From Butyrivibrio sp. AE3004 (GTDB lineage: Bacteria > Bacillota > Clostridia > Lachnospirales > Lachnospiraceae): 64,000 bases of DNA. Positions 3-16,419 of the stretch are shown here, one piece after another; position 1 is the first letter of the stretch; every line of letters begins with the position of its first letter. Made by a program: the position numbers and the translations under genes. Below the pieces are notes generated by a model that was given only the letters and a program-made list of their open reading frames with translations, was not told the origin of the DNA and ran no database searches. The DNA lies in NCBI RefSeq assembly GCF_000703165.1, contig NZ_JNLQ01000002.1, positions 62,001 to 126,000 of the forward strand, read 5' to 3'.

Positions 3-1559
3 GAGTTCATGCGTGGACTTACTGAAGGACTGGCAATTTCTTCATTATCGCAGAATACTATTGAAGGTTATTATTTAGAGCTGATTGGAGAAATAAGTAA
101 GGAATTTGTAATAAATAAGAGTATTAGAACTGAAAATGATATTAGTGAAGCGTTCTTGAGTTATATTTATTCTGAAGAGATGCTTAAAAATATTGACCTG
201 GAGCTGATATTGCTTAGGCAAGATCAGGATGAATTTTGCGAAAGATTAAATACAGTTCTCGAGTCTTTTGGCGAAAAGGAAATATCAAATTCATATGAAC
301 TGTATGATTTTCAGAACTATCTTGCTGATACTACTACAATTATAAAAGAACGTATAGCAAAATCTAAGGATGCCCTGACCAGGTTAAGAGAACGAGTTAA
401 TAATTTAAAACAGCGATATTTTGATTTGGCGGACCATGAGATAAAGAAGGCCAAAGAAGATTACTTGGGTGAATTAAAAGAGGCGGTGAAAAAGGTCAGA
501 CGAATTCTTAAAGATGAGCAAGATTCGGATAATAGAGCAGTGATAAGAGAATTGCTTTCTACAGATGTGGACAATATGTCAGAGGATGCATGCAAATATT
601 ATTTGCTGCGGGCTGCACGATTTAGTGTCGATGCAAATCGGGAACTAAGAATATGTGAGAGGACTGAACGTAATATACTTGAATTAGAAAATGAGCTCGA
701 AGAAAAGCCCAAAACTATTCAAGAGGCGGAAGAAGAATTAAAAAAAGCAGAACTTCAGCAAATATCTTCAGATAAAGAAGCCGAGGTTTCAGGAATACTT
801 GAGGAAGCAAAAGAATATCGAAACTTAAAGACATATAACCGAATAGTCGGGAATTTGTTAAACGAGAAAGCAAAAGAATTAGGTATCAAGCGTCCAAAAG
901 GATTTCATAGATATGATCTCTATCTGCGACTGCAGTATGTGATGAGGTTATATCAAAAGATGCCGTCAATACATAAATATATATGTATTGACGAAGGACA
1001 AGATATCTCTTTTATGGAATATCAGATGCTTGCATCGCTTGGTAAAGGAAAGAGTGTTTTTAATATTTATGGTGATACAAATCAGGTTTTAAATCATGGT
1101 CATGGTCTAAATGATTGGAGAAGCCTAAAGAAGCTGTTCGAATACAAACAGTTCTATTTAGATGAAAACTATAGGAATTCAAATCAGATTACGCATTATT
1201 GTAATAACGAGTTCTCTTTGTCGATGAAAGAAATTGGTATTGACTCTGCGCCGGTAAGAACGCTGTCTAGAACAGAATTTGAATTCGAAATAACAACAAC
1301 AGATAAAGGAGCGAAGGATAGATGGGCAATCCTCTTGGCAAGGGAATATAACAAAAAAAGGTTTGCTGAAACTCTGCCTATAAACAATACATCAATAGAT
1401 GAGATTGGAGAAGAACGAATATCTGTTATGTATGTTGATGAAGTAAGAGGGTTTGAATTTGATAAGGTCTATGTAATTAGAAACGGAATGTCTAGTAATA
1501 TGGAATATGTTTCATATACTAGAGCTATTAATGAATTGGTTATTGTGGACTGGAAGTAA
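3..1559 (+). CDS. UvrD-like superfamily 1 helicase, C-terminal part (cut by window edge)
   Basis: Probable DNA helicase, first visible gene of the ten-gene defence-like operon. Counting from the ATG at 9, a Walker B motif DEGQD lies near residue 328, an SF1 motif with LDENYRNSNQI near 384, and motif V/VI-like EVRGFEFDKVYV near 478 and SYTRAINELVIV near 502. No Walker A loop (GxGKT) is present, and the frame stays open to the left edge, so the ATP-binding N-terminus must lie outside the window and the ATG at 9 is probably internal. Residues 85-270 are charged and predicted coiled coil, as in arms of HelD/UvrD-type proteins. The stop is 2 nt before the next ATG, so the genes are translationally coupled. 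The SF1 helicase fold is confident; the subfamily is not. Confidence 0.8.
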   Translation, partial: EFMRGLTEGLAISSLSQNTIEGYYLELIGEISKEFVINKSIRTENDISEAFLSYIYSEEMLKNIDLELILLRQDQDEFCERLNTVLESFGEKEISNSYELYDFQNYLADTTTIIKERIAKSKDALTRLRERVNNLKQRYFDLADHEIKKAKEDYLGELKEAVKKVRRILKDEQDSDNRAVIRELLSTDVDNMSEDACKYYLLRAARFSVDANRELRICERTERNILELENELEEKPKTIQEAEEELKKAELQQISSDKEAEVSGILEEAKEYRNLKTYNRIVGNLLNEKAKELGIKRPKGFHRYDLYLRLQYVMRLYQKMPSIHKYICIDEGQDISFMEYQMLASLGKGKSVFNIYGDTNQVLNHGHGLNDWRSLKKLFEYKQFYLDENYRNSNQITHYCNNEFSLSMKEIGIDSAPVRTLSRTEFEFEITTTDKGAKDRWAILLAREYNKKRFAETLPINNTSIDEIGEERISVMYVDEVRGFEFDKVYVIRNGMSSNMEYVSYTRAINELVIVDWK

Positions 1560-1561
1560 TA

Positions 1562-2305
1562 ATGAATGGATCAAGATTATATTCGATAAAAGAAATGCGA
1601 GAAATGATAGAAGGGATGCCTTCAGTATCATTTTTGAGGTTCTTGCGTGACACTAGTGATTCAATCAGAGAAATTGCCTTTTCATGGGTGGACGACGAAA
1701 ATACTATTTCTGAAATAAAATCTAAGATGGAAGAAATAGAGGAGTTAGAGGCTGCTTATAGTGAGCAAGGCAGAATATTTGACATGGGAGATTTACTATC
1801 TGTTTTGCGGTCATATGCGAAAAGAGTTGAGTTGGATGAGATTAGAAAAGAGAGGGAATCATTAGAAAAGAGCAACGTAGAGGATATACAGACTGATGAA
1901 AATCAAGAAAAGCAAGATGTTCAGGAAGTGTCTGATACCTCAAGTGATTTTGAACGGGACAGTAGGGACGTTGAAAAAAAGAGTGAAGATTACGAGTATC
2001 CAGATATTGATATACAAAGTATCATAGATGACACTAATCTTTACCAATCGCAAGATTTTGGAAAACGAGTAAACATAGAAGAATTCGAATTATATATATG
2101 GCCAGAGTACTATTGCCCCATACATGGAGAATTGTTGGAGAAAATACAAGTTGTGGCAACATACGGGAAAGGCAAAAAGTTTGGTGTTATTGTGGACTGC
2201 TGTAAGAAATGTAAGAGATTATATGTTAGTCCATTTGAAGTAAATAGTATTGTGGAAGATATAAGACAAAAGAAGATTCCATACATAATAAAAAGGGTAA
2301 AATAA
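1562..2305 (+). CDS. Unknown operon protein with C-terminal Cys/His cluster
   Basis: Not recognised. The 247-residue product has a helical N-terminus, a very acidic and low-complexity middle (about residues 95-165, rich in E, D, S and Q), and a C-terminal domain with a CPIHG motif and a CCKKC motif about 37 residues further on. These could bind one zinc ion. It has no signal peptide or membrane segment, so it is probably cytoplasmic. It sits 2 nt after the helicase and 3 nt before the ZorA-like gene, so it is almost certainly made together with both. An adaptor between helicase and motor is possible, but this rests on position only. Confidence 0.75.
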   Translation: MNGSRLYSIKEMREMIEGMPSVSFLRFLRDTSDSIREIAFSWVDDENTISEIKSKMEEIEELEAAYSEQGRIFDMGDLLSVLRSYAKRVELDEIRKERESLEKSNVEDIQTDENQEKQDVQEVSDTSSDFERDSRDVEKKSEDYEYPDIDIQSIIDDTNLYQSQDFGKRVNIEEFELYIWPEYYCPIHGELLEKIQVVATYGKGKKFGVIVDCCKKCKRLYVSPFEVNSIVEDIRQKKIPYIIKRVK

Positions 2306-2308
2306 ATC

Positions 2309-4048
2309 ATGAAAAGAAACTATAATTGGGGATTTGGATTAATTGTATTATATATAGGCATGTTTGTTGTGTGCCAAATCTTGACTAATATAGATGGAGT
2401 TTCAAAAACCAGCAGACAGATCAATTATGGTCTGTTTATCATTGCGGGCTTGATTTTCATAGCGGCATTTATCTATTTTTCAAAAATATACAGAATTACA
2501 AAGGATCTTCATAAAGCAGCAAAAAAGATCAAAAGTGATTTTGATCAGAAAAATGCATATTTATGGGATGATTACAAGCAAATACCGCCAGAGTCGTTCT
2601 TTAAGGCAACGGAGCTTAGGTCTGCATATAAAGCATATAGCATTGAGGCTAAGCGTCTTGAGAGTAAAACAGGTGGGAGTTTTAGGTGTAACATAGAGGA
2701 CTTCATTAATCGTGAATTGATAGATGTAACGATTAAGAAGAATCTGTTCAATTTAGTGCCAGGAACTATGACTGGATTGGGAATATTGGGTACTTTCCTG
2801 GGACTGTCATTGGGACTTCAGGAGTTTAATACTGGTAGCGCTGCGGAAATTTCGGAAAGTATAGCTCCACTTATGGATGGAATTAAAGTGGCATTTCATA
2901 CCTCCATATATGGTATGGTTTTTTCATTAGTCTTCAATTTCCTTTATAAACAGATAATTGAAGATGCTTATAGTAGATTAGGACAGTTTTTGGATGCATT
3001 CGATTACTATGTAATCAGTGATTCATATTATGAGAATAATAGTAGCTTGTATAACATTTTAAAACAGATTCCTAACGACATAGGTCAGCAGATTATGGTG
3101 GTGCTGGAACCTGCATTTACAACAATGAATGAAACACTAAAGACTTTCTCAAGGGAAGTTAATGAAACCCAGATGGAGGGAGTCTCTCAAATTGTTGACA
3201 AGTTTGTAGAACAAATGAATCAGTCATTAGGTGAAAATTTTGCTCATTTGGGTGAAACAATAGAGAAGACATGCCAGCTGCAAAACGAGAACAATGATTA
3301 TATGCAAGATATTCTCATTAAAGTTGGAGATATGACAAGTAATCTTATGACGATTAATGAAATGTCTGAGAAGACAATTGAGAGCTTGTCTGGATACATA
3401 GAGAAAGTAGAGAAACTTCAAAAAGTAATAAATGATAACTTTATGAGTGTTAATATTCAGCTTGAGTCTCAGAATGAGATGAATGCTAAGCTGAATGAAT
3501 ATATACAAGTATTAACAGAACATGAAAAACAGATGTCAGAAGCTGCAGGTAGCTTGGCAAAAGATATGGCTCTTCAGATAGAAAATCTTGATAAGCTTGA
3601 AAAAGATTTGTCTGAGGGTACTAGAGAGAATATGCAGTTGTTATTACAAAAGGCCGAAGAATATAGTAATAGTTTGGCGGAAGTGGCTAAAAAGCAGATA
3701 CAAGAAGTTATTAATCTCTCTAATAGCAGGACTATGGATATGAATCAAGCTGCGCAGGAACTCTCAAAGGCTTCTGCTGAGTTTGATACGAAGCTTTCAA
3801 CTTCATTAGATAGGACATTTGATACCTTCGATAGTAACCTGGCTGAAATTGCAAAGCATTTAAGTGGAACGATTTCAGAAGTCGAGGCTACTACAGATAA
3901 AGTACCACAAGTGGTGGTGGCTGCATATGATGGAATGGAGAAATCATTTACAGAGATGAGGACAAATCTTGAAGCGCTTATTCATTCATTAGATATTATG
4001 CAGAGGAATCTGCCAAGACTTGTTGATAAATTTGATGACAAGAAGTGA
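2309..4048 (+). CDS. zorA: ZorA-like MotA/TolQ/ExbB-family motor protein
   Basis: Predicted inner-membrane stator subunit of a Zorya-type motor. The N-terminus has two membrane helices (about residues 7-26 and 40-59). A MotA/TolQ-type pair follows: a Gly-rich helix near 150-172 beginning PGTMTGLGILGTFLG, and a second one near 190-213 in IKVAFHTSIYGMVFS. Residues from about 240 to the end form a long cytoplasmic coiled coil, which is the hallmark separating ZorA from ordinary MotA or ExbB. The next gene overlaps and encodes the matching ZorB-like partner. In known Zorya systems the pair forms an ion-driven rotary complex anchored to the cell wall, with the tail reaching into the cytoplasm. Family assignment is confident; action against phage is inferred. 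Confidence 0.88.
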   Translation: MKRNYNWGFGLIVLYIGMFVVCQILTNIDGVSKTSRQINYGLFIIAGLIFIAAFIYFSKIYRITKDLHKAAKKIKSDFDQKNAYLWDDYKQIPPESFFKATELRSAYKAYSIEAKRLESKTGGSFRCNIEDFINRELIDVTIKKNLFNLVPGTMTGLGILGTFLGLSLGLQEFNTGSAAEISESIAPLMDGIKVAFHTSIYGMVFSLVFNFLYKQIIEDAYSRLGQFLDAFDYYVISDSYYENNSSLYNILKQIPNDIGQQIMVVLEPAFTTMNETLKTFSREVNETQMEGVSQIVDKFVEQMNQSLGENFAHLGETIEKTCQLQNENNDYMQDILIKVGDMTSNLMTINEMSEKTIESLSGYIEKVEKLQKVINDNFMSVNIQLESQNEMNAKLNEYIQVLTEHEKQMSEAAGSLAKDMALQIENLDKLEKDLSEGTRENMQLLLQKAEEYSNSLAEVAKKQIQEVINLSNSRTMDMNQAAQELSKASAEFDTKLSTSLDRTFDTFDSNLAEIAKHLSGTISEVEATTDKVPQVVVAAYDGMEKSFTEMRTNLEALIHSLDIMQRNLPRLVDKFDDKK

Positions 4049-4056
4049 GGAAGATG

Positions 4057-4854
4057 ATGTCTAGAAAAAGGCATGAAACAATAGATGAAGAAACAACATA
4101 CTGGTTATCATATTCAGACATGATGGCAGCACTTTTGCTTACTTTTGTTCTGATTATTTCTTTTACTATGTTACAGGCAAAACGACTGTATGAAGAAAAG
4201 GAATCGGAGTTGGAGCAACAACATGAACTTTTGGCAGAGCAGCAGGAAAAGCTGGATGAGCAGCAGATTAAGCTCGATGAACAAAAAAAGATCATGGAAA
4301 AGCAACAAGAACAGCTGGATAAAATTATTGGAGTGAGATCCAACCTTGTAGAAGCGTTAAAGGAAGAATTTGATGGATCTGATCTTAAAGTATCAATCGA
4401 TCCGAATACTGGTGCAATAACATTGGATTCTAGTATCTTATTTGATGTAAATAAATGGGATATAAAAGAGTCAGGACAGGCATTTTTGGAAAACTTTTTA
4501 CCGCGTTACATTGGGGTATTGCTAAAGCCGGAATTCAAGTCATATGTTTCCGAAATAATAATTGAGGGGCATACGGATACAAATGGTAGTTATATGCATA
4601 ATCTAGAACTGTCTCAGGATCGTGCTTTATCAGTTGCAAGGTTTTGCTTGATGGATGAGAGCACTGTTCTTAATGCCCGTGAAATAGAAGAATTAAGGCC
4701 AATCTTGACAGCCAATGGAAGATCTTTTAGTGATCCAGTTTATGGGGCTGATGGTAATGTGGATTTAGCAGCATCACGAAGAGTTGAGTTTAAATTTAGA
4801 CTTACAGATGAAGAGATGGTAACAGAGATGATGGAGCTATTATCTTCAAATTAA
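4057..4854 (+). CDS. zorB: ZorB-like MotB/OmpA peptidoglycan-anchoring motor protein
   Basis: Partner of the preceding ZorA-like protein. A single membrane helix (about residues 21-43) starts in YSDMMAALLLTF. The Asp at residue 21 sits where MotB/ZorB carry their ion-carrying carboxylate. A Gln/Glu-rich coiled coil follows, then an OmpA-type domain with EGHTDTNG near residue 169 and a C-terminal AASRRVEFKF motif, expected to grip peptidoglycan. The reading frame is open from a GTG at 4045 that overlaps zorA. The ATG at 4057 is preferred because GAGG lies 6 nt before it; ATG 4054 is also possible. The family is clear. In a Gram-positive cell the OmpA domain would bind the thick outer wall. Confidence 0.88.
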   Translation: MSRKRHETIDEETTYWLSYSDMMAALLLTFVLIISFTMLQAKRLYEEKESELEQQHELLAEQQEKLDEQQIKLDEQKKIMEKQQEQLDKIIGVRSNLVEALKEEFDGSDLKVSIDPNTGAITLDSSILFDVNKWDIKESGQAFLENFLPRYIGVLLKPEFKSYVSEIIIEGHTDTNGSYMHNLELSQDRALSVARFCLMDESTVLNAREIEELRPILTANGRSFSDPVYGADGNVDLAASRRVEFKFRLTDEEMVTEMMELLSSN

Positions 4855-4865
4855 TAAGGACATTT

Positions 4866-6062
4866 ATGGAATATACTTATACCCCTAAAAGACTGCTTCA
4901 GGCGGTGGAAGATATTAAAATACAGCATCCATTAGAGCAAGAGATTCCCCAAATTTCTCAGGATCAAAGTCTCTTTGAACTAATAACTAGGCTTGCTAAA
5001 TTGGAATTGTATCAAGTAAAGGTAAATGCCATTGCATTATCGGATTTAGATGCTGCTAGGGTTGCTGGATATCTACCATTTAATTATTACAATGTTAATA
5101 TGAAAAATCTATTTTTGATTTTTAACTATCGGTCAAATGATAGATTATGCAAGATATTGTTTAATCAATGGCAGGATTCTTTTTATAATCGCGATTGTAA
5201 TGCTTTTATTACTGAGCTGCTCAATATGGATGAGAAATTTATAATGATGATTCGAGGATGTCATTATAAAGAGGATGAATTCTCTAAGGCACTGGAAGGG
5301 AATCATATTATACTTCTTTTGATAAAGAAGTTGAAATCAACACCATTCCCTGTCGGAACGGAGCTTGGAGAAAAACTTCAGTACTGGGGCATAAGGACAG
5401 ATAGTAAATTGTTTCGAGCTATTAAATTCTTGTTTTATACCTTTTGTGAGAAAGAGGATTATCTTGCAATAACTAAAGGAGAACTTCTTTCTACAGTAAG
5501 AAGATATGCTGAAAAGGATCAGGAGGTATTAAAGAAGTTCTTAATTAATTTTATATCAAAATTTGAACATCGTGAATTAGAGAATTACCCAGAGTTAGCG
5601 TCATTTCTTGTTACACAGACGGGTGAAGTAAATACGGATAAGTTTAAAAACTTCTTCGAGGGTGTAGATTATTCGATAGTCAAAAAGTATATAAACTGGA
5701 TAAACATAAAGATTATTAATGAAGTATTTGGCTATGATGAGAGAAGTAGATTTTGGAAACAATATGAATACTTGTCAGTCAGAAAATATTATAGAAGTAA
5801 TTCTGTTGTGATGGAAATGGAAAAATACTATGCAGTAGAATTCCTTGGGAAAGCTATGGGGCCGATATACATCTATAAGAAAGAGGTATTTGACAGTCAA
5901 GTAAGAAAATGGTTTGTATATAACAATAATTCTGAAGTGAGATCGCTGCTATTTAATAACCAGGATTTATGTGTGCTCAGGCGTGCACATAATTCGGGTT
6001 GGGAGAGAGAAATAAACAGATATCTTATATCTAACCATATGACACAAAAGATAGTGGTATAG
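4866..6062 (+). CDS. Probable EH-signature (ZorC-like) protein
   Basis: Lies where zorC does in type I Zorya, directly after zorA-zorB. The 398-residue product is soluble and alpha-helical. Its last third carries features like the EH_Signature domain of ZorC: RSRFWKQY near residue 293, a conserved-looking Glu in YAVEFLG near 322, and a His in RRAHNSGWE near 372. The paired Glu and His give that domain its name. In Zorya, ZorC is thought to act with the motor and the nuclease/helicase on invading DNA. The N-terminal two thirds are not recognised. The call rests on weak motifs plus strong context; a profile search against the EH_Signature family would settle it. Confidence 0.6.
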   Translation: MEYTYTPKRLLQAVEDIKIQHPLEQEIPQISQDQSLFELITRLAKLELYQVKVNAIALSDLDAARVAGYLPFNYYNVNMKNLFLIFNYRSNDRLCKILFNQWQDSFYNRDCNAFITELLNMDEKFIMMIRGCHYKEDEFSKALEGNHIILLLIKKLKSTPFPVGTELGEKLQYWGIRTDSKLFRAIKFLFYTFCEKEDYLAITKGELLSTVRRYAEKDQEVLKKFLINFISKFEHRELENYPELASFLVTQTGEVNTDKFKNFFEGVDYSIVKKYINWINIKIINEVFGYDERSRFWKQYEYLSVRKYYRSNSVVMEMEKYYAVEFLGKAMGPIYIYKKEVFDSQVRKWFVYNNNSEVRSLLFNNQDLCVLRRAHNSGWEREINRYLISNHMTQKIVV

Positions 6063-6072
6063 AGGGTGTGCG

Positions 6073-7194
6073 ATGAAATGTATAAGGTGTGGTGCTGAAT
6101 GGAAATCTAGTAATATGCATCCTCCAATGAAAAAATGTCCGGTGTGTGGAAACGATTTTGATAAAAATAGAGGGCAAAGAGTCTTTTCATCAGAGGGTGA
6201 ACTTATCTATGTACTAAGAAAAGAGGAAGGAAAGACTATCGTTTCTGAACCTAAGAGGGTATTTGCTTTTTTAAACGATTATTTTCCAATGAATGAGGGA
6301 TTTCGAAATCAGTATCTTGCACTGTATGATAAAGGTTTTGCTGATACAGTATCGCAATACTTTTCTGGTTCTTTGCAAAACAAAGACATATCTGATTTTG
6401 TGCAATCTAATTCTAACGATGATGCTTTTGTTGATGCAATTCTTTTTTCCTTAAGTGTGGTTGAGTCTAATGGAACAGATTTCAATGATCCGAAGTATTG
6501 GATGAATGTTTTGAATCAGTTATCAAGTGATGAGTATAAATCAACAGTATTAAAGCATGCATCTGAGCTATCTGATGATTCAACTATATCGGAGAAAATC
6601 ATTGAATTAGAGTTAAACAGTGGAGATATTAAGCGAGCTGCAGAAAAATTAGAAGAATTGGCATCAAAGGGTAATCCAGATGCACTTTATAAGATAGCAA
6701 CAATGTACTTAGAAGGGGAGTATTACGAGAAGAATTTAAAAAAAGCAGTATCACTATACAAACTATCTGCGGATAAAGGGAATGTCGAAGCTGAATATCG
6801 ACTCGGGGTTATAAGTGAGGATTGCAATGAGGTCGAACTAGATGATTGTATCAGCTATCTAAAAAGAGCTTCCGATAAGGACCATATACAAGCGCAGTGT
6901 AGACTTTATAGTACTTTGTATAAGGATGATAAATCAAAGATAGAGGCAATTGGATACTTAAAAAAAGCGGCATTCCAAAATTACCCGCCTGCCATGTATG
7001 AGTATGCTATGCATTTGCTATATGGAGACGAAGTTGAAAAGGACATTGAGTCTGCTATAAGATTTTTACAAACAAGCGCAGACGGAGGCGATAAGGATGC
7101 AATCAGTAAATTAGTTTATTTATATACAACAGGGTATGAAGTTGAGCGTGATGAAGAAAAAGCAAATCATTATAGGAAAATGATAGAGAGGTAA
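6073..7194 (+). CDS. Zinc-ribbon protein with Sel1-like repeats
   Basis: Predicted protein-protein interaction scaffold. An N-terminal zinc ribbon is formed by C3-x2-C6 and C22-x2-C25 (in KCPVCGNDF). Residues from about 185 to the end contain about five Sel1-type helical repeats, for example ALYKIATMYLEGEY, AEYRLGVIS and AMYEYAMHLLYGDEVEKD. The central region is helical and not recognised. It is cytoplasmic, with no signal peptide. The gene starts 10 nt after its neighbour and ends 5 nt before the next, inside the Zorya/TerY-P operon. Sel1 repeats often bind signalling partners, so it may couple the kinase/phosphatase triad to the motor; this is inference. Confidence 0.72.
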   Translation: MKCIRCGAEWKSSNMHPPMKKCPVCGNDFDKNRGQRVFSSEGELIYVLRKEEGKTIVSEPKRVFAFLNDYFPMNEGFRNQYLALYDKGFADTVSQYFSGSLQNKDISDFVQSNSNDDAFVDAILFSLSVVESNGTDFNDPKYWMNVLNQLSSDEYKSTVLKHASELSDDSTISEKIIELELNSGDIKRAAEKLEELASKGNPDALYKIATMYLEGEYYEKNLKKAVSLYKLSADKGNVEAEYRLGVISEDCNEVELDDCISYLKRASDKDHIQAQCRLYSTLYKDDKSKIEAIGYLKKAAFQNYPPAMYEYAMHLLYGDEVEKDIESAIRFLQTSADGGDKDAISKLVYLYTTGYEVERDEEKANHYRKMIER

Positions 7195-7199
7195 TAGAG

Positions 7200-7706
7200 A
7201 TGGGCTTTTTTGATTGGCTTTTTGGCACACCCAAACCTGCAACGCCGAATGTGCAGTCGATTTTACCGGACATTGCGAAGAATGAAATAATGAATGGAAG
7301 GCTTCCACATATTAATCCTGACAAATTGTTTTTGAAAAGAGGCGAGATATGTCATTATGCGGATAAAGCAATGTTGGAGGTTACTAAAACTAAAAAGACT
7401 ATAAATTCGAGACACGTAGGACATAGCGTTCCGGGGCTTTTAAAAGGAAATAGATGGAATATGGGAAGAACGGTTTCATCTATAGACGAGGCTGTAGAAG
7501 TCAACGAGTATAAGGGGATTTTATATATAACTAATAAGCGGATTGTATTTAATTCAAAAGGCATGGGGTTTGATAAGCAGTTTCAATATTTGTCTGCGTT
7601 CAATCCTTATGCTAACGGAATAGAACTTCAATATGGAGCAACAATCTATAGGTTGTTTGTCCCTGACGGTAATGTAGTATATCGCGTAATTCAAATGCTT
7701 CAGTAG
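7200..7706 (+). CDS. Small protein with PH/GRAM-like beta domain
   Basis: Not firmly recognised. The 168-residue protein starts with the hydrophobic MGFFDWLFG, then has a beta-rich region with GILYITNKRIVFNSKGMG, a pattern typical of bacterial PH/GRAM-like domains ('...lyiTnkRliF...'). Such domains bind membranes or proteins. The amphipathic N-terminus could sit on the membrane surface. It is placed 5 nt after the Sel1 protein and 14 nt before the kinase, so it belongs to the operon. A membrane-docking or sensor role beside the motor is plausible but unproved. Confidence 0.6.
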   Translation: MGFFDWLFGTPKPATPNVQSILPDIAKNEIMNGRLPHINPDKLFLKRGEICHYADKAMLEVTKTKKTINSRHVGHSVPGLLKGNRWNMGRTVSSIDEAVEVNEYKGILYITNKRIVFNSKGMGFDKQFQYLSAFNPYANGIELQYGATIYRLFVPDGNVVYRVIQMLQ

Positions 7707-7720
7707 TAGGAGGTATCTAA

Positions 7721-9028
7721 GTGGAAGGATTATTAAAAAAAGGGCAGCAACTACAGAGCTATAGTAATAACAACATAGTTTATGTTGTAGGCGATTGTTT
7801 AGGCGCTGGCGGACAAGGTGAGGTTTACGTTGTGGATTCTCCTACGGGGAAAAAGGCTTTGAAGTGGTATTTTAAAGCTACAAGTACTGCTGAGCAAAAG
7901 AATACCATAATGAATTTGGTTCAAGATGGAAGCCCAAGTAAAAATTTTCTTTGGCCAGAAGATTTCATTGTCAGTAATGATGGTACGTTTGGCTATATCA
8001 TGGAATTAAGGCCTAAAGAATATAGAAATATCCCAGATTTATTAAATAGAAGAATCGAACCTGATCCGACTTTTGAGAAGCTTATTCTTGCAATTTATAA
8101 TATGGCAAAAGAGTATGAAGAGCTTCACAAAAAGGGCTATAGTTATAAAGATATATCGGAACAAAATATTTTCTTTAAACCGGATACTGGGGATGTATTG
8201 GTTTGTGACAATGATAATGTTTCAGGTGATGGACTAGATGATAGTGGAGTGTATGGAACTATGAGATATATGGCACCTGAAATTGTAAGAGGCGAGGCAT
8301 CTCCTAATAGGAATACAGATTTATATTCACTTGCAGTACTTATTTTTTGTATGCTGTTTATAAGTCATCCTTTGGAAGGGAAGAATGAGGCGAGTATTCA
8401 CGCATTGGATGAAAATGCATTAAAAGGATTATTTGGAAAACATCCAGTTTTTATTTTTGATCCTAATAATGATGAGAATAGGCCTGTTCCGGGAATTCAT
8501 GATAATGCAAATATTTATTGGAACCTTTATCCACAATTTCTTAAGGACAAATTCATCACTGCATTTACAGATGGCTTGACTGATCCTAACGCTAGAATTG
8601 TTGAGAAAGAATGGCGCGATACAAGTATAAGATTGCTGGATAGCATAATGATATGCCCGGTGTGTGGAGCGGAAGTTTTCTTCGATGAGGAAAAAGATGT
8701 ACATGGGCAGCCGCATATATGTTGGGGATGTGGAAATACGATTACTGCACCTCCGCAGATTAGAATCGGAAAACATAGAATACTTTTGAATCTTACCACA
8801 AAGATAAATGAGCATCATATTAAAAACAATTACAATATTTCCAAAACGGTAGCCAGCATATCTCAAAACCCCAAGAATCCGAGTCAATGGGGACTGAAGA
8901 ACGAAAGTGATGCGCCGTGGACTTATATAAGAAATGATGGTTCTCAGGTTATCGTAGCGCCAGGGCAAAGTGCAGCGTTGGTTTCTGGAACAAAAATCAA
9001 CTTTGGTCAGATAGAAGGAACCATTTAA
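7721..9028 (+). CDS. Serine/threonine protein kinase of the TerY-P triad
   Basis: Eukaryotic-type kinase. It has a glycine loop GAGGQGEVYVV near residues 27-37, a Lys in KKALKWY near 47, a catalytic-loop variant YKDISEQN near 142 (catalytic Asp and Asn kept, usual Lys replaced by Ser), a metal-binding DND in CDNDN in place of DFG, and MAPEIV. A zinc ribbon follows (CPVCG near 312 paired with CWGCG), then a C-terminal FHA-like beta domain. This kinase-zinc ribbon-FHA-like layout is the one described for TerY-P kinases. It starts with GTG, preceded by TAGGAGG. Its phosphatase and VWA partners are the next two genes. It probably phosphorylates operon proteins; the substrates are unknown. Confidence 0.85.
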   Translation: MEGLLKKGQQLQSYSNNNIVYVVGDCLGAGGQGEVYVVDSPTGKKALKWYFKATSTAEQKNTIMNLVQDGSPSKNFLWPEDFIVSNDGTFGYIMELRPKEYRNIPDLLNRRIEPDPTFEKLILAIYNMAKEYEELHKKGYSYKDISEQNIFFKPDTGDVLVCDNDNVSGDGLDDSGVYGTMRYMAPEIVRGEASPNRNTDLYSLAVLIFCMLFISHPLEGKNEASIHALDENALKGLFGKHPVFIFDPNNDENRPVPGIHDNANIYWNLYPQFLKDKFITAFTDGLTDPNARIVEKEWRDTSIRLLDSIMICPVCGAEVFFDEEKDVHGQPHICWGCGNTITAPPQIRIGKHRILLNLTTKINEHHIKNNYNISKTVASISQNPKNPSQWGLKNESDAPWTYIRNDGSQVIVAPGQSAALVSGTKINFGQIEGTI

Positions 9029-9089
9029 AAGAAATAATAAACAATTTTAATGAAATTGAGGGTTATAAACGTTCAAGGAGGTGTAAAAA

Positions 9090-9818
9090 ATGAGTGAAAT
9101 GATACGTCGACCCGGTGGTGAAATGGCTAAACGCCCTTTGAATTTCTTTTGGGTAGTGGATTGCTCTGGTTCTATGAGCGTAGAAAACAAAATGCAGCAG
9201 GTTAATTATGCCATTCAGTCTACTATTCCTGATATGAGAGAAGCTGCTAAAGACAATACAAATGCACAGTTATATGTGCAAGCGATGCAGTTTTCTACTG
9301 GGGCAACTTGGCTCACAACGCAACCTGAAGAAATAGAGACATACCAATGGCGAGATATGACTGCTAGTGGTGTTACTGATTTGGGAAAAGCATTTGAATT
9401 ATTATGTGGTCAGTTAAGTATTCCTCCTATGTCTGATAGGGCATTACCACCAGTTATTGTTTTACTTTCTGATGGACAACCTACTGACTCCTACCGAAGT
9501 CAGCTGGATCAACTTTTGAATATGCCATGGGGAAAGAAGGCGGTTAGGATTGCCATTGCCATTGGAAGAGATGCTGACAGATCGGTATTAGAGGAATTTA
9601 CTGGAAATAAGGAACTCGTTTTAGATGCAAATAATCCGCAGGCGTTGGTTGCTATGATTAAATGGGCATCTACAGTAGCAAAACAGGTTTCCACACCTGC
9701 AAGCAGAAGGGCGAATGTTGAAACTTCTACACCATCTGGGGCACCTTCAAGCGTGCAAACTGGACCAGTAACAATAGATTTGGCAGTACCGGATGATTTT
9801 GGGGATGATGTGTGGTAA
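9090..9818 (+). CDS. TerY-like von Willebrand factor A domain protein
   Basis: VWA-fold protein with a complete metal-ion-dependent adhesion site: DCSGSMS near residue 24, a Thr in VTDLGK and an Asp in LLSDGQPTD near 126. TerY-type VWA proteins are single-domain cytoplasmic proteins encoded beside a PP2C phosphatase and a kinase. They are thought to act as metal-dependent assembly platforms. About 40 residues at the C-terminus are Ser/Pro/Thr-rich and could be phosphorylated by the neighbouring kinase. It has a strong AAGGAGG site. The 61-nt gap before it is the longest in the operon and could hold an internal promoter, though no consensus was seen. Confidence 0.85.
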   Translation: MSEMIRRPGGEMAKRPLNFFWVVDCSGSMSVENKMQQVNYAIQSTIPDMREAAKDNTNAQLYVQAMQFSTGATWLTTQPEEIETYQWRDMTASGVTDLGKAFELLCGQLSIPPMSDRALPPVIVLLSDGQPTDSYRSQLDQLLNMPWGKKAVRIAIAIGRDADRSVLEEFTGNKELVLDANNPQALVAMIKWASTVAKQVSTPASRRANVETSTPSGAPSSVQTGPVTIDLAVPDDFGDDVW

Positions 9819-9833
9819 TTGTGAGGTGTGCCT

Positions 9834-10721
9834 ATGAGGGTTGTTAAAGTAAATGCTTCTGCTATGGGAGCATCTCATAAGCGTAGTAAGAATCCAAAAT
9901 GTCAGGACGCGAATCTTGTAAAGACTCTTCCTGACCATACTATTGTTGCTTGTATTGCAGACGGACACGGAAGTGAGAAATGTCGCTTTAGCGATAGAGG
10001 AGCGCGTTTTGCTGTAGAAGCATTCTATGAGTTGGTAAGGAAATATTATTCTAATGCTGATGGAAATCATGATAGTATGATGCAGCATTTGAAAAAAAGT
10101 GAGACGACAAAGTTTGTGCAGCTCTTTCATACCATATGGAAGCGGAAAATAAAGAATTCTTATGATCAGATTCGTAAAGCATATACTGATTTGAGTCAAA
10201 TCAAGGAAGTTAATCCGGAATTATACGGAACAACTTTTATTGGAATGATTATTGCTTCTGATTTTGTTTATGGTCTTCAGATTGGGGATGGTGATATGGC
10301 TTTTGTGGACAAGAGAGGATATCAGGTGGTTATTAGACCTGATAAATTTCTGGGAGTTGAGACATATTCAATGTCTGAAGATGAGCCATGGAGACATGCA
10401 AAGTCATATTTACAGGAAGTTGAATTTGATTCAAATATACCATTTATGTATATTCTGACCACGGATGGATTTGCAAACAGTTTTAAGGATGATGAGCAGT
10501 ATCAAATATCTTGCGTCGATTATTTTAATACCATATGCAAATATGGTCAGAAGGCTGTACAGACTAATTTGGAAGAATGGTTATCACAGACTAGCGAAGA
10601 AGGGTGCGGAGATGACATAACACTAGTAGCTGTAGGTGGAATAGAGGATGAAGATGATAACGAAACTGATGATGAAGGCGATGTAAGTGCAACGGATAAT
10701 GGTGATGATGCGGACATTTAG
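9834..10721 (+). CDS. PP2C-type protein phosphatase of the TerY-P triad
   Basis: Metal-dependent Ser/Thr phosphatase. It shows the PP2C signature CQDAN near residue 26, ADGHG near 42, TTDGF near 209 and CGDDITLVAV near 258, supplying the acidic metal ligands. It would reverse phosphorylation by the kinase two genes upstream, so kinase, VWA and phosphatase form a switch. The ATG at 9834 is preferred over the GTG at 9828 because GTGAGG lies 7 nt before it. The C-terminus is an acidic tail of about 25 residues rich in D and E. It is the last gene of the operon; the next gene is convergent and its stop is 18 nt away. Confidence 0.87.
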   Translation: MRVVKVNASAMGASHKRSKNPKCQDANLVKTLPDHTIVACIADGHGSEKCRFSDRGARFAVEAFYELVRKYYSNADGNHDSMMQHLKKSETTKFVQLFHTIWKRKIKNSYDQIRKAYTDLSQIKEVNPELYGTTFIGMIIASDFVYGLQIGDGDMAFVDKRGYQVVIRPDKFLGVETYSMSEDEPWRHAKSYLQEVEFDSNIPFMYILTTDGFANSFKDDEQYQISCVDYFNTICKYGQKAVQTNLEEWLSQTSEEGCGDDITLVAVGGIEDEDDNETDDEGDVSATDNGDDADI

Positions 10722-10739: not shown

Positions 10740-11330
10740 TTAGTATTTGCCGGGTACAAAACCATTTTCAAGGGCAATAATATGCATTTCACGCAATCTA
10801 CCTCTATCCCAAAGATTGACATCGGTCATTCGTGCTGTTTCATAAGCTGCTTTGGTAAAGTAACTGTTTGTCATGACAATTGCCTTATTACATTTATAGA
10901 AAATCTTCCCGGACACAACTTCTTGAACAGCGTGATTCCCAACATTTCCAGAATATTTTTTACATTGAATTGCGTAGGAGAGGCTACTTTTTTGACATAA
11001 TATGTCAACACCAAAGTCTCCGCTACCAGAAGTAACCTGTATATTACTGAAACCATTGTATCTAAGTAAGTCAGCACAATAGTATTCAAAGCTATGACCT
11101 TCAATAGAGTCTATATCGAATTTAGTAGAAAAAGAGGATTTAGCGGTCATCGTTGATGAGGAAGAGAGCGGCAGATTTGACGTGGTGGGTAGTAAACCAT
11201 CAGAGCGTAATTGGGCAATAATAGATTCAGCCTCAGACTGAGATATTTTCATCTCAACCTGAAGAAGGCTGACGGATGGATTATTGTATCTTTTTATTAT
11301 ATTTAATGCAGTCTGCAAATTTGAATTCAT
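10740..11330 (-). CDS. Mrr-like restriction endonuclease with FtsK-gamma-like N-terminal domain
   Basis: Predicted DNA endonuclease of the PD-(D/E)xK Mrr class. The C-terminal half has E82, the motif GDFGVDI with D109 and the QxK motif Q122-C-K124, matching the Mrr/HJC catalytic core. The N-terminal 48 residues (NPSVSLLQVEMKIS...QLRSDGLL) resemble the winged-helix gamma domain of FtsK, which reads short DNA motifs. The two are joined by a Ser-rich linker. It is encoded opposite to and just after the Zorya/TerY-P operon, and divergent from the next gene with only 29 bp between starts. Mrr enzymes cut modified DNA, so it may belong to the same defence island. Whether it works with the operon is not shown. 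Confidence 0.8.
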   Translation of the reverse strand: MNSNLQTALNIIKRYNNPSVSLLQVEMKISQSEAESIIAQLRSDGLLPTTSNLPLSSSSTMTAKSSFSTKFDIDSIEGHSFEYYCADLLRYNGFSNIQVTSGSGDFGVDILCQKSSLSYAIQCKKYSGNVGNHAVQEVVSGKIFYKCNKAIVMTNSYFTKAAYETARMTDVNLWDRGRLREMHIIALENGFVPGKY

Positions 11331-11359
11331 ATAGGGTCTTCTTATGTGTTGGAGGGTAT

Positions 11360-12379
11360 ATGATTAATGATCATTATTATTATCATAAACTGAATGGCAT
11401 TGAACAGGAAGCGTATAAGGTCATATATAAGGCGATAACGCAACGTGAGAAAGAGGCCATTTTTTGTTCTCCGAATCTCTCGATGGAAGATGTTTTCAAT
11501 ATCTATAAAGCAATTATATTAGATAATCCACATTTGTACTATATCGACTATGGAAATATTATGGTATCAAAAGATTCTAATGGAATGATACGGGCGCAAA
11601 TAAGACAGGTATATTCAGAGGAACAGTGCAAAAAACTAGATGGATTACTTGAGAAATATGCCAAAACCATTTTACAAAAAATTGATTTTACAGGTAAAGA
11701 TGTGTCTGAGCAAATACATGCAGTCCATGATTTGCTAGCTTCGAATGTTGTATATGATCATGATGTTGCTGAAGAACGAGCAGCTGTGGAAGATATACAT
11801 TTTTCGCATACAATATTGGGTGTTATTTTAAGAAAAAAGGCAGTGTGTGATGGTATAGCAAAATCTTTTAAATATCTTTTAAATGCTATAGGAATTAGAT
11901 GCATAGTGGTCACCGGGAACGCTGATAATGATATGTATAATAATGAAGACCATGCGTGGAATATAGTAAAGATAGGCGAACATAGTTACCATATTGATGT
12001 TACAAATGATACAAATAGCACTGAAAGTGGGTTTATATGTCAGGATTATTATTGTCTAAATGATGAGCTGATAAATAGAGATCATTCAAATTACAAAGGT
12101 ATGCCCATTTGTGATAGCCTAGAAGAAAACATGTTTTATAAAAATGGGGCGATAATTAAAAACAATGACGATATGGATGTTTTTATCAAAAACAAACTGG
12201 CTTCTGGATCCAATCGCGCATATTTTATGCTGGATTATGTAGATGATATGGTAAGAGTAGCGAATGATATTCAAGAATCTGTAGCTGGTTATATCATGCA
12301 AAAAGGAACAAAAGCTAAAATATTTACTGTTTCTAATGAGAAAATGCGAACGGTTATGTTAACAGTTGAAGAGTTTTAA
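11360..12379 (+). CDS. Transglutaminase-like cysteine-protease-fold protein
   Basis: Contains the transglutaminase-like triad in the expected order: Cys in KAVCDGIAKSF near residue 163, His in DHAWNIV near 198, and Asp in HIDVTND near 212. Such domains act as proteases or cross-linking enzymes. There is no signal peptide, so it is probably cytoplasmic, and the N-terminal 100 residues and C-terminal 90 are not recognised. The frame is open upstream, but the ATG at 11360 directly follows GGAGG and is the evident start. The gap to the divergent nuclease gene is only 29 bp, so its promoter probably overlaps that gene. Substrate unknown. Confidence 0.7.
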   Translation: MINDHYYYHKLNGIEQEAYKVIYKAITQREKEAIFCSPNLSMEDVFNIYKAIILDNPHLYYIDYGNIMVSKDSNGMIRAQIRQVYSEEQCKKLDGLLEKYAKTILQKIDFTGKDVSEQIHAVHDLLASNVVYDHDVAEERAAVEDIHFSHTILGVILRKKAVCDGIAKSFKYLLNAIGIRCIVVTGNADNDMYNNEDHAWNIVKIGEHSYHIDVTNDTNSTESGFICQDYYCLNDELINRDHSNYKGMPICDSLEENMFYKNGAIIKNNDDMDVFIKNKLASGSNRAYFMLDYVDDMVRVANDIQESVAGYIMQKGTKAKIFTVSNEKMRTVMLTVEEF

Positions 12380-12404
12380 TTACCAGAATGGTAGAAGGAT
12401 ACCT

Positions 12405-12638
12405 ATGAAAGACTATTGGATTTATGGAATAGGATTCTTTATTGCGACACTTGTGATTCAGTATTTTGCGTTTCGGGTTCGAAAAGGTAAAAAGGATAAC
12501 TGGGCCATCATGACCGGAGAAACGGCAGTGATCGCTATATGCTTAATAGGAATTTTAGAACATAATGAAATACATTATGCTTCTATTATAGGCTTTGTAT
12601 TGGCAGATTTGATAGGAAAAGCAGCAGGGTTGCACTGA
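12405..12638 (+). CDS. Small membrane protein, unknown
   Basis: Product of 77 residues with a first membrane helix (YGIGFFIATLVIQYFAF), a short basic cytoplasmic loop (RVRKGKKDN), then two further hydrophobic stretches (AVIAICLIGIL and ASIIGFVLADLIG). It resembles no family I can name. The ATG at 12405 follows AGAAGGA; the longer open frame from 12366 has no ribosome site and overlaps the previous gene. It is encoded 25 nt after the transglutaminase-like gene, so the two are probably co-transcribed. Confidence 0.55.
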   Translation: MKDYWIYGIGFFIATLVIQYFAFRVRKGKKDNWAIMTGETAVIAICLIGILEHNEIHYASIIGFVLADLIGKAAGLH

Positions 12639-12815
12639 AAATGGAGACTGTGTTTTAGACTTGTTTCTGGTAATGAATGATTTGTTATATTATTCCTTTA
12701 TGATATTTCTGATAGAATAGTTCAAATGTCGGGGATTTAAGTAAGTATATAGTTGCACCTCGTGTTTTGAAGGAGATATAATTTATTCACATATTTTTGT
12801 AGCAGAGGTGTGAAT

Positions 12816-13463
12816 ATGAAGCGAATTGTTACTAGAGTAATGGTTGTTGCGGTTTGTATGTTGTGCTTTGTTAGCTTTGATAGCCATGCATATAAACATT
12901 CTTATAGTGAATATAAGCAGGCAAAAGAAAAGGCCTACCAGCAGTATCAAAAAGAGAAGGAAGAAAGCTATCAACGTAATCGTGGTAAGAGCTACTCTGA
13001 AAGAAGAGCAGACTACGAGGCTGTTCATGATAGAGGTATAGCAAATTATGAGAAAGTATACCAATATTATCATGATGGAACAGGAAGCGCATATGTAAGT
13101 GGTAGTAGTAATACTACGGTTGGGCAGGCTTCAACGAGTACTGTTTCTAATTATGTGAGTCCTAATATTTCAGATATTACAAAAGTGACTGACAAAGCTC
13201 AGATTATTGCTGTGTATGATGAAAATTATTATTTAAGCAATAATCCTGATGTTGCACAGTCAACCGGTGGTGATTCTGCAGCAACTTTACAGCATTTTCT
13301 TAAGTATGGAATCAAGGAGGGACGTGCTGGAAATGCAGAATTTAATGTAAGCATTTATAGAGCCAAAAATGCAGACCTTGATGCGGCATTTGGTGATGAT
13401 CTTGCAAAATACTATCAGCATTATGTGAATAATGGGAAATTAGAGAACCGAGTAGCACACTAA
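12816..13463 (+). CDS. Secreted protein with C-terminal NPDVA-type repeat
   Basis: Exported protein of unknown role. It has a clear signal peptide (basic start MKRIVTR, hydrophobic VMVVAVCMLCFV, likely cut near SHA). A highly charged, Tyr/Lys/Glu-rich segment follows (about residues 27-90), then a Ser/Thr linker. The C-terminal 85 residues contain YDENYYLSNNPDVA and YGIKEGRAGN, a repeat common in secreted and cell-wall proteins of Lachnospiraceae ('...yPDVa...yl.yGi.EGR'). The ATG at 12816 is preferred to the GTG at 12810, with AGAGG in front. It is followed by a terminator and so ends its transcription unit. Confidence 0.7.
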   Translation: MKRIVTRVMVVAVCMLCFVSFDSHAYKHSYSEYKQAKEKAYQQYQKEKEESYQRNRGKSYSERRADYEAVHDRGIANYEKVYQYYHDGTGSAYVSGSSNTTVGQASTSTVSNYVSPNISDITKVTDKAQIIAVYDENYYLSNNPDVAQSTGGDSAATLQHFLKYGIKEGRAGNAEFNVSIYRAKNADLDAAFGDDLAKYYQHYVNNGKLENRVAH

Positions 13464-13490
13464 TTTAAATTAAGGATAAGGGTATATAAG

Positions 13491-13533
13491 GGTTACGGAA
13501 TGCAACCGACTGGTTGCGTTTCGTAACCTTTTC
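13491..13533 (+). terminator. Rho-independent terminator
   Basis: A 17-bp stem, GGTTACGGAATGCAACC paired with GGTTGCGTTTCGTAACC, with a 4-nt loop (GACT) followed by TTTTCT. It closes the secreted-protein gene. Confidence 0.85.
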
Positions 13534-13535
13534 TA

Positions 13536-13564
13536 TTGCGTTTATTTTTTCTGCTTAATATAAT
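13536..13564 (+). promoter_or_regulatory. Sigma-70-type promoter of the Lrp/alpha-CTD genes
   Basis: The -35 box TTGCGT and -10 box TATAAT are separated by 17 bp, directly after the terminator and 39 bp before the Lrp start codon. The perfect -10 box and spacing make this convincing. Confidence 0.65.
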
Positions 13565-13602
13565 CAGCTTAATCAGAGTCGACACTGATAGGAGCAGAGA
13601 TT

Positions 13603-14100
13603 ATGGATGAAACTGATAAGAAAATCTTGGATATGATCAAGGGTAATGCCCGCATGAGTTTCCAGGAGATTGGTAATCAGCTGGGTATTTCCCGGGTGGC
13701 TGCAAAGAAAAGGGTTGATAAGCTCGAGAAGGCAGGAATTATTCGCGGCTATAATACCTATATCAAGAGAGATGATGAGATAACCATGTTATTTGATATC
13801 ATCACTGCAGAGGGAGCCTTTGAAAGAGTCTTGGAATATGTAGCAACGCGGACAGCTTATGTGCGTCAGATTGTTACTACTCATAAAGAAAATCATATTC
13901 ATATGGTGGCAGTATCAGATTCTTCTAAAAATCTCAAGTATTTGGCCAAGATGATTGACAAGGACTGCGGAGATGATATTAAAGAGCTACATGTTCGCCA
14001 GGTCCAGGAGGTCATCAAGGACGTTTATGGAGGAATTAAATATGAACCAGGATCAGTGTCGAACACTAGCGCAGATAATGGAAACAATGGCAGGCTATAG
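13603..14100 (+). CDS. Lrp/AsnC-family transcriptional regulator
   Basis: Has the Lrp/AsnC signature: an N-terminal helix-turn-helix (DETDKKILDMIKGNARMSF, then IGNQLGISRVAAKKRVDKLE) over residues 1-60, and a beta-alpha ligand-binding domain to about residue 150. These proteins form octamers and sense amino acids or small metabolites. The last 15 or so residues (from the region where the next gene begins) are Asn/Ser/Gly-rich and look unconstrained. The end overlaps the next gene by 59 nt, so the C-terminal tail doubles as the start of the alpha-CTD-like protein. It has its own promoter just upstream, which it may control itself. Confidence 0.85.
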   Translation: MDETDKKILDMIKGNARMSFQEIGNQLGISRVAAKKRVDKLEKAGIIRGYNTYIKRDDEITMLFDIITAEGAFERVLEYVATRTAYVRQIVTTHKENHIHMVAVSDSSKNLKYLAKMIDKDCGDDIKELHVRQVQEVIKDVYGGIKYEPGSVSNTSADNGNNGRL

Positions 14101-14431
14101 AGTTCACGAGAAAAAAGGAGGAAAATTTTATTTCAACCTGTATCTGAGTAATAGTATGAGTGAAGCGCCAATAGAGGCTCTGGAGCTTGGAGTCCGGTCA
14201 TATAACTCATTGAAAAGAGCCGGTTATACAAATATCGGAGAATTAGCCGAGGCAATAGCCGATGGTATCGATCTCAATAAGATAAGAAACTGCGGTGCTA
14301 AAAGTAGCAGAGAAATAATGGAAAAATTATTTATATATCAGTTTAATGTGCTCCCACAAGGCAGGCGAGAACAATATGTTAAAGATGTAATGCTGCTTAA
14401 TGCAAGGAAACATGAATATGGAGAAGTATAA
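14042..14431 (+). CDS. Stand-alone RNA polymerase alpha-CTD-like protein
   Basis: Residues 43-100 closely follow the C-terminal domain of RNA polymerase alpha subunit: LELGVRSYNSLKRAGYTNIG, then IRNCGAKSSREIMEKL. The DNA-contacting residues of E. coli alpha (R265, N268, G296, K298, S299) appear kept as R52, N55, G85, K87 and S88. There is no alpha N-terminal domain, so it cannot assemble polymerase as alpha does. It may bind UP-like DNA or a regulator. The ATG at 14042 follows GGAGGA by 7 nt and lies inside the Lrp gene, implying coupled translation. Similar proteins are, to my knowledge, annotated in other Lachnospiraceae without known function. Confidence 0.75.
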   Translation: MNQDQCRTLAQIMETMAGYRVHEKKGGKFYFNLYLSNSMSEAPIEALELGVRSYNSLKRAGYTNIGELAEAIADGIDLNKIRNCGAKSSREIMEKLFIYQFNVLPQGRREQYVKDVMLLNARKHEYGEV

Positions 14432-14485
14432 GAAAGCATATAAGAATGGGGTGTTCTATAACCATTGGGATAGGAGGATTTATCT

Positions 14486-15217
14486 ATGATCGGAGGATAC
14501 GCTGTTTGGGATACACATATTCATATAATTCCAGGAGTTGATGATGGAGCTAGGACTACAGAAGAAGCTATTGAAATGCTGAGAATGGAGTATAGACAAG
14601 GTGTGGACTGTGTTTATGCGACTCCTCATAGTTTGGCATTTGACCATAACGCAGAATTTGTGCAGAAGAAATACGAGGAACTTAAAAGAGCGATTGAAGG
14701 AGCAAGGATTAATATTCAACTTATGGGGCTTGGATGTGAAGTTTTTTGCCATCCTGGGAATATTACTGAATGCATAAAGAAAATAAAAGATGGTGTTTAT
14801 CCCACTCTGTCACAATATGTTCTTACGGAGCTGCCTACATATGGTATAAGTATAAATGATGTTATGATATGTCTGGATAAGATAATTGATGCAGGATATG
14901 TTCCGGTTTTATCACATGTTGAAAGATATGAGTTTTCTGATATTAAAAGTATTGCATTTCTAAGAGATAAAGGTGTTCAGATTCAGGTAAACGCATACAG
15001 TCTTACAAATGGTGCATCGTCAGCAAAGAGAAAACTTACTACTGAACTTGTAAAATATGGAATGGTGGATTTTGTAGGAAGTGATGCACATAGACTTGAC
15101 CATAGACCGCCTGTTGTTGAAGAGGGGGTAAAGAGAATAATAGAGCTGACTTCAGATGTAGATGCAATGCTGATATTAGCCGCAAACCCTAAGCAGAGAT
15201 TGCTAAGAGGAGAGTAA
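14486..15217 (+). CDS. PHP-domain tyrosine-protein phosphatase (CpsB/YwqE family)
   Basis: Metal-dependent PHP-fold phosphatase of the type that dephosphorylates the tyrosine kinase controlling capsule or exopolysaccharide export. Visible metal-site motifs are WDTHIHIIPGVDDGA (residues 8-22), ATPHS, GCEVFCH, LSHVERYEF and GSDAHRLDHR. The length of 243 residues matches the family. It has a good AGGAGG site. No capsule gene or tyrosine kinase lies nearby, so its partner must be elsewhere, or it has another substrate. It is 54 nt after the alpha-CTD gene and may share its transcript. Confidence 0.85.
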   Translation: MIGGYAVWDTHIHIIPGVDDGARTTEEAIEMLRMEYRQGVDCVYATPHSLAFDHNAEFVQKKYEELKRAIEGARINIQLMGLGCEVFCHPGNITECIKKIKDGVYPTLSQYVLTELPTYGISINDVMICLDKIIDAGYVPVLSHVERYEFSDIKSIAFLRDKGVQIQVNAYSLTNGASSAKRKLTTELVKYGMVDFVGSDAHRLDHRPPVVEEGVKRIIELTSDVDAMLILAANPKQRLLRGE

Positions 15218-15353
15218 GGTTTACTTAGAGAACTCAGGGTAATAACAACTCTGCGGAAAGTATCCGCTCAGAGATTGAGTATGCCAAAGAATATGGAAAA
15301 ATGCAGAATATTTAAATACTGGCGAATAAAATAATGTTGGGGATTTTGTAACA

Positions 15354-15878: not shown

Positions 15879-15914
15879 TACAGTGTAATTGATGAAAAGC
15901 AATGAGTTCTTTCT

Positions 15915-15950
15915 GAGCTGGGAAATATAAAAATCCCAGCTCTATTTTTG
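15915..15950 (+). terminator. Rho-independent terminator
   Basis: GAGCTGGGA pairs with TCCCAGCTC across a 10-nt A/T loop, followed by TATTTTTG. It closes the SprT-like gene. Confidence 0.85.
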
Positions 15951-16369: not shown

Positions 16370-16419
16370 GATAAAGAAAGAATTATCAGCAGATGATAAA
16401 AGGCAATCAGATATATAAA

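Follow-up and report, generated by a model that had tools for sequence, protein, structure and literature searches.

Zorya systems are built around a ZorA/ZorB motor and are assigned to types by the proteins that accompany it, namely ZorD (an SNF2-type helicase) in type I, ZorE (an HNH nuclease) in type II and ZorF (DUF3348) together with ZorG (DUF2894) in type III. In one study, peptidoglycan binding by ZorB and ion flow through ZorAB are described as necessary, and the tail of ZorA is proposed to recruit a nuclease complex (PMC11890865). The TerY-P triad, by comparison, consists of adjoining genes for a VWA protein, a PP2C phosphatase and a zinc-ribbon kinase. PMC11090510 describes it as a hypothesised metal-sensing, phosphorylation-dependent switch, associated with tellurite resistance and attached to helicase-bearing CoCoNuTs, and PMC7699616 reports that TerY-P alone is active against T7-like phages. 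Here, we describe a ten-gene operon of Butyrivibrio sp. AE3004 in which a Zorya-type motor and a TerY-P triad stand in one co-directional run. The window, i.e., the whole stretch of 64,000 nucleotides (nt) analysed, covers positions 62,001 to 126,000 of contig NZ_JNLQ01000002.1 (G000:C2:62001-126000 in our coordinates), and the operon extends from G000:C2:60710 to window position 10721 (Table 1).

With a probability of roughly 60%, the operon is read here as a modular Zorya anti-phage variant in which a motor core and a helicase are joined to a cassette of GRAM, kinase, VWA and PP2C proteins and plausibly placed under phosphorylation control. This reading is supported by the match of the motor to ZorA/ZorB, a likely ZorC, the lack of a ZorD match among the ten proteins, the reuse of the core in another genome, the occurrence of TerY-P with a motor elsewhere and the genomic setting. 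As in type I Zorya, the motor pair is of ZorA1/ZorB1 type and is followed by a probable divergent ZorC, giving the order A-B-C. Unlike type I, the operon has no detected ZorD, carries a superfamily 1 (SF1) helicase before the core and a Sel1 protein after it, and includes both an extra gene 2 and the attached GRAM-TerY-P cassette. Type II and III-A CoCoNuTs likewise combine an SF1 helicase and TerY-P in one operon (PMC11090510), but neither a match to their McrB-like GTPase (CnuB) nor another CoCoNuT core protein was found in the Butyrivibrio operon, where the partner of TerY-P is a Zorya motor. The DrmA-DrmB pair characteristic of DISARM is likewise missing from the operon, both proteins having been found only in a relative locus of the genome G568. 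A joined Zorya and TerY-P system was not found in the accessible parts of the open-licence papers PMC7159879, PMC11090510, PMC12839542, PMC11890865, PMC12458937, PMC12505986 and PMC8565338; PMC10889362 and PMC10855318 contain both words, Zorya and TerY. The operon is probably an undescribed Zorya variant.

Table 1. The ten genes of the operon, with positions in the window and the evidence for each product (aa, amino acids).
Gene	Product	Position	Strand	Evidence
1	SF1 helicase, C-terminal 518 of 949 aa in the window	3..1559	+	UvrD-helicase 7e-10, Viral_helicase1 2.4e-6 (full open reading frame)
2	Protein without assigned function, C-terminal CxxH and CxxC	1562..2305	+	similar C-terminal end before ZorA in G568
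3	ZorA, MotA/ExbB domain and long, probably coiled-coil tail	2309..4048	+	ZorA1 9.4e-32
4	ZorB, plug helix with YSDMM, OmpA-type peptidoglycan-binding domain	4045..4854	+	ZorB1 1.7e-77
5	Likely divergent ZorC (EH-signature), by way of the G568 relative	4866..6062	+	24-25% to the L158 protein
6	N-terminal zinc-ribbon-like part (two CxxC) and Sel1 repeats	6073..7194	+	Sel1 1.2e-18
7	GRAM/PH-like protein at the head of the TerY-P cassette	7200..7706	+	GRAM E 0.0054, below cut-off
8	TerY-P Ser/Thr kinase, C-terminal zinc ribbon	7721..9028	+	Pkinase 1e-14; CxxC at 312, 334
9	TerY-like VWA protein, DCSGS and SDG motifs	9090..9818	+	VWA 1.3e-7
10	PP2C-type phosphatase, DGHG, GDG, DGF and GDD motifs	9828..10721	+	PP2C_2 3.1e-29

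The original prediction of ten co-directional genes separated by -4 to 61 nt is borne out by the list of open reading frames (ORFs) and the measured gaps, which are 2, 3, -4, 11, 10, 5, 14, 61 and 9 nt from gene 1 to gene 10. All ten ORFs lie where they had been placed, but gene 1 starts at position 3 only because the window cuts into it: the full helicase ORF (L002:14710-17559, G000:C2:60710-63559) begins 1291 nt before window position 1. Of the original domain labels, those for the SF1 helicase, ZorA/ZorB, Sel1 with CxxC pairs, kinase, VWA and PP2C stand, while the GRAM label remains weak. A pattern scan of the plus strand returned no terminator-like site in 2450-10721 and two weak ones within genes 2 and 3 (1610-1623 and 2429-2450). 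Gene 1 and the C5 methyltransferase gene upstream of it are separated by sequence that contains an 11-pair stem with a T-rich tail. Promoter-like sites were not more frequent than in shuffled sequence.

The hidden Markov model check against Zorya profiles that had been proposed for the motor was run, and it places the pair in ZorA/ZorB. In addition to its PADLOC match, ZorA matches Pfam MotA_ExbB (1.3e-6) and has the Zorya ZorA chain 8qyh as its nearest solved chain (7.6e-15, residues 53-237), and ZorB matches Pfam OmpA (1e-11) and MotB_plug (2.5e-5) and is nearest to the Zorya ZorB chain 8qyd (6.6e-15). NCBIfam agrees in the assignment of both genes, with scores below its cut-offs. ZorA combines a MotA/ExbB-like membrane domain with a long cytoplasmic tail, and ZorB an Asp-containing membrane helix with an OmpA-type domain; the plug motif is invariant across eight aligned ZorB rows. 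No PADLOC match to ZorD, ZorE, ZorF or ZorG was obtained among the ten proteins at E up to 0.1, with the helicase searched in its cut form, and the full-length helicase matched GajB, RTasHel, C3a187 and mad8 only, and no ZorD, at E up to 0.001. An HNH match was likewise absent from the operon. The closest ZorB relatives, found in the loci L023-L025, are 56-62% identical, and in L023 an SF1 helicase also precedes ZorA. Two other candidates were rejected, a ZorB-like match in L132, which lacks the plug helix and whose upstream neighbour is not ZorA-like, and a match of 229 aa in L151, judged by eye to be an ordinary ExbB-type protein.

Gene 5 was searched for in three partly overlapping genome samples, drawn from the family (299), the order (392) and the class (391). 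The single full-length relative found lies in G568, is 24% identical over residues 4-379 and matches EH_Signature (5e-5; 23.2 bits, below the cut-off of 27.5) and PADLOC ZorC1 (2.8e-4). Furthermore, when a ZorC candidate encoded on a Nostoc plasmid, located after ZorB and before a helicase, was compared with the two gene 5 proteins by hhalign, the FW..Y and VEF stretch aligned with a probability of 67.5%. By way of the G568 relative, gene 5 is thus likely a divergent ZorC. A further match was obtained in G506 (3.9e-4), and matches in G245 and G128 were rejected, the former being encoded beside type II/IV secretion ATPases and the latter being a glycosyl hydrolase. Plasmid searches with genes 5 and 7 returned no match.

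The G568 locus (L158:6550-18326) comprises seven genes with gaps of -11 to 15 nt, encoding a gene 2-like protein, ZorA, ZorB, ZorC, a Sel1-UvrD fusion, DrmA (2.2e-225) and DrmB (1.9e-81). Gene 2 and its counterpart (L158:6550-7122) share 34% identity over 85 residues (E 2e-6), and both precede ZorA. The order gene 2, ZorA, ZorB, ZorC, Sel1 is the same in both loci, but in G568 the helicase, of UvrD/GajB type, is fused to Sel1 (L158:11047-13440, at the position of gene 6) and DrmA-DrmB replaces GRAM-TerY-P. As judged from gene content, the two loci share a Zorya core with an exchanged accessory set. Because the core from gene 2 to ZorC (in G568) and the GRAM-TerY-P cassette each occur apart, the predicted join between the modules lies between genes 6 and 7, and the fusion of Sel1 and helicase suggests that genes 1 and 6 may act together. 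Both Zorya operons have the same pair of genes nearby (window 13603-14431 and L158:5231-6133), recognised by eye as encoding a regulator of AsnC/Lrp type and a protein similar to the C-terminal domain of RNA polymerase alpha. The G568 operon is also preceded by a row of short ORFs (L158:1011-4551) sharing a leader-like part that ends in a double glycine, perhaps small peptides.

Genes 8 to 10 form the complete TerY-P triad that had been predicted, as Pfam matches and motifs confirm: a kinase with a C-terminal zinc ribbon, a VWA protein and a PP2C phosphatase are direct neighbours and motif-complete. An alignment of nine kinases shows no variation at K48, D144, N149 and D163. PADLOC gave no family match for genes 9 and 10, the presence of TerY-P models in PADLOC-DB not being established. 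In L067, L076, L078 and L082 the gene immediately preceding the kinase is a close homologue of gene 7, which is therefore assigned to the cassette. No motor was detected with the GRAM-TerY-P cassette in these four loci; its further partners are a leucine-rich repeat (LRR) protein, BrxL and an SF1 helicase-restriction endonuclease in L067, and an LRR protein and a Schlafen-type protein in L076. In L067:1-12494, GRAM-TerY-P follows LRR, BrxL and an SF1 helicase that carries an MTES_1575 nuclease, an arrangement resembling a BREX-related locus with a phospho-switch.

Besides the window, two other loci unite TerY-P with a motor or motor-like pair, one on the Prevotella plasmid pE2-28 and one in L149, where the motor-like pair lies in the order kinase, VWA, PP2C, 227 aa, motor-like pair, 239 aa, GRAM-like. 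On pE2-28 (NZ_CP091789.1; L075, :10000-42000), the locus 11008-30425 holds 15 co-directional genes on the minus strand with gaps of -8 to 28 nt. The first half encodes TerY-C, kinase, VWA, PP2C, three proteins without assigned function (one GRAM-like) and FGE, the second half UvrD/RNaseT, FtsK, a protein of 566 aa, ZorA2, ZorB2, ZorE2 and FtsK. Like the window operon, this run unites TerY-P, a GRAM-like protein, a UvrD-type helicase and ZorAB, whereas its motor is of type II by profile (ZorA2 5.5e-157, ZorB2 1.8e-80, ZorE2 8.6e-68) and comes with ZorE, two FtsK proteins and an FGE-like protein, and TerY-P stands first. Type I models give the best scores for the window motor and type II models for the Prevotella motor, so that the profiles point to repeated coupling of TerY-P with motors. 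The ZorB tree does not prove separate origins: the three TerY-P-linked motors need three changes on it, but the starred branches force just one. The tree holds 20 rows (L028 missing), has long branches and is poorly resolved around the window.

Elsewhere, ZorAB and TerY-P mostly occur separately. The original prediction had named such separation, combined with a chance neighbourhood in the window, as speaking against it; the first half of this applies to most loci, but the two are joined in the window and the Prevotella plasmid and, with a motor-like pair, in L149. Apart from the source genome, ZorB was found at E < 1e-45 in 14 of 299 family genomes, and ZorA and ZorB were present in 14/14 fetched loci. 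Left out of this count were L037-L040 (ZorB-like, E 5.4e-31 to 1.8e-19), where no ZorA adjoins. In one of these, L039:8884-16051, WXG100-like and FtsK genes, reminiscent of a type VII-like secretion locus, accompany genes for a kinase, a PP2C, a 261-aa protein and a 539-aa OmpA-domain protein. The TerY-P kinase was found at E up to 1e-25 in 7 of the 299 family genomes besides the source genome, with motor matches in 0/7 loci. A wider kinase scan with one genome per species (84,980) matched 581 stretches, of which 278 were confirmed and the best 80, from many phyla, were used; it is not a census. At least 20 kb were available in 33/80 stretches, and a single-sequence search detected VWA in 59/80 and PP2C in 63/80. 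In the plasmid search, 2333 records matched the kinase and the best two (L075 and L073) were examined. Scans of viral contigs yielded no relative of the kinase or of gene 5 and, for ZorB, two loci, both without TerY-P.

Several results weigh against the reading as a phospho-controlled Zorya variant. None of kinase, VWA, PP2C, gene 2 and gene 5 was detected in the 14 family ZorAB loci (7/14 stretches hold 20 kb), and a motor-like pair occurs in only one (L149) of the best 80 of the 278 confirmed kinase loci. The ZorA-like protein of L149 has no PADLOC and no MotA_ExbB match, being recognised from membrane segments and motifs read by eye. The plasmid locus L073 carries TerY-P but no motor in 31 kb, and TerY-P was not seen near the G568 core (L158, L159). 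The exact ten-gene order, whose recurrence the original prediction had proposed to survey, was not found a second time among the genomes searched. Gene 5 itself, originally called EH-signature-like, has no EH_Signature or ZorC match and no Pfam match at E up to 1, so that the label is upheld only through the weak matches of its G568 relative. A nuclease domain was not recognised in any of the ten proteins by profile searches including Pfam, PADLOC and NCBIfam, and the ZorB genes of L023-L025 adjoin housekeeping-type genes (FBPase, Na+/H+ antiporter, HDOD).

The genomic setting speaks for the reading. Genes for a C5 methyltransferase, a MutH-like enzyme, a Vsr-like nuclease and a relaxase lie upstream of the operon, and genes for a TraG-type coupling protein and for NlpC/P60 and ArdC-like proteins follow farther upstream; from this gene content, the surroundings look like an integrative conjugative element. 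The co-directional genes for the methyltransferase, the MutH-like and Vsr-like enzymes and a DUF6339 protein (L002:9471-14386) make up a restriction-modification cluster. On the other side, convergent and 18 nt past the operon, lies a gene for an Mrr-type restriction endonuclease with a weak N-terminal FtsK_gamma match (window 10740-11330, minus strand).

One alternative concerns the helicase. The original prediction of a UvrD-like helicase in place of ZorD holds insofar as no ZorD was found and an SF1 protein with a UvrD-helicase match, and with matches to GajB-type PADLOC profiles, lies in the operon, but the nearest solved chains are HelD (3.1e-13, 6wvk, and 4.8e-7), not UvrD. The protein might accordingly clear phage transcription by acting on RNA polymerase as HelD does, and the 369 residues between Walker A (GCAGSGKT at 392) and DEGQD (at 761) would leave room for an insertion like the arm of HelD. 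This is improbable, as residues 1-243 lie outside the HelD alignment and the DWR motif, called absolutely conserved in HelD by PMC8655204, falls in an alignment gap of the N-terminal domain; a DWR string is found elsewhere, after motif III. Because of this gap, the helicase is not classed as HelD. A relative in G047 adjoins TmtA-like and DrmD-like genes, and a weaker relative in the same genome (L056:15719-18295, G000:C2:141719-144295) lies among UvrD, HNH and restriction-type genes.

The other alternatives concern the operon as a whole. Genes 1-6 could be a Zorya variant and genes 7-10 an independent GRAM-TerY-P system stacked behind it, transcribed together but with separate mechanisms, as would fit the motor-free cassettes of L067, L076, L078 and L082, the TerY-P-free core of G568 and the reported activity of TerY-P alone (PMC7699616). 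We consider this rather unlikely, given that genes 6 and 7 are separated by 5 nt with no terminator-like site at the join and that TerY-P and a motor share a co-directional run in two other settings. Very improbable, in our view, is a response to envelope or metal stress in place of phage defence, with the stator pair reporting wall stress and TerY-P relaying it to the helicase for repair. The housekeeping-type neighbours of the nearest family ZorB relatives and the tie of TerY-P to tellurite resistance (PMC11090510) are what such a role would predict; the position of the operon between restriction-modification genes and an Mrr-type gene, the mobile-element genes upstream, the defence genes that accompany the G568 core and the rarity of gene 5 in the samples searched argue against it.

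For the preferred reading, a phospho-controlled Zorya variant, published Zorya work suggests a course of events in which ZorB would sense the disturbance of the cell wall by an injecting phage, ion flow would turn ZorA, and the ZorA tail would recruit ZorC, the Sel1 protein and the helicase, which would then act on nucleic acid where the phage enters. Following the hypothesis for TerY-P, the phosphorylation of the recruited proteins or of the motor would be set by the zinc-ribbon kinase and PP2C on a VWA scaffold, the helicase would thereby be armed only on infection, and the GRAM protein may tie the cassette to the membrane. In a wider and more tentative proposal, which we rate as possible, TerY-P would be a portable phospho-switch, apparently coupled three times to different Zorya-type motors, that arms or releases a DNA-acting effector recruited by the motor.

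The transfer of the signal from the Zorya motor to its effectors has so far only been modelled, and an operon that places kinase, phosphatase and VWA genes next to those for motor and helicase would offer a direct handle on it, with the operon proteins forming a short list of candidate TerY-P substrates. The effector slot of the Zorya core (gene 2-ZorA-ZorB-ZorC) furthermore accommodates quite different helicase sets. If the wider proposal of a portable switch is true, wall sensing, ion-driven rotation and kinase signalling would form a single immune relay.

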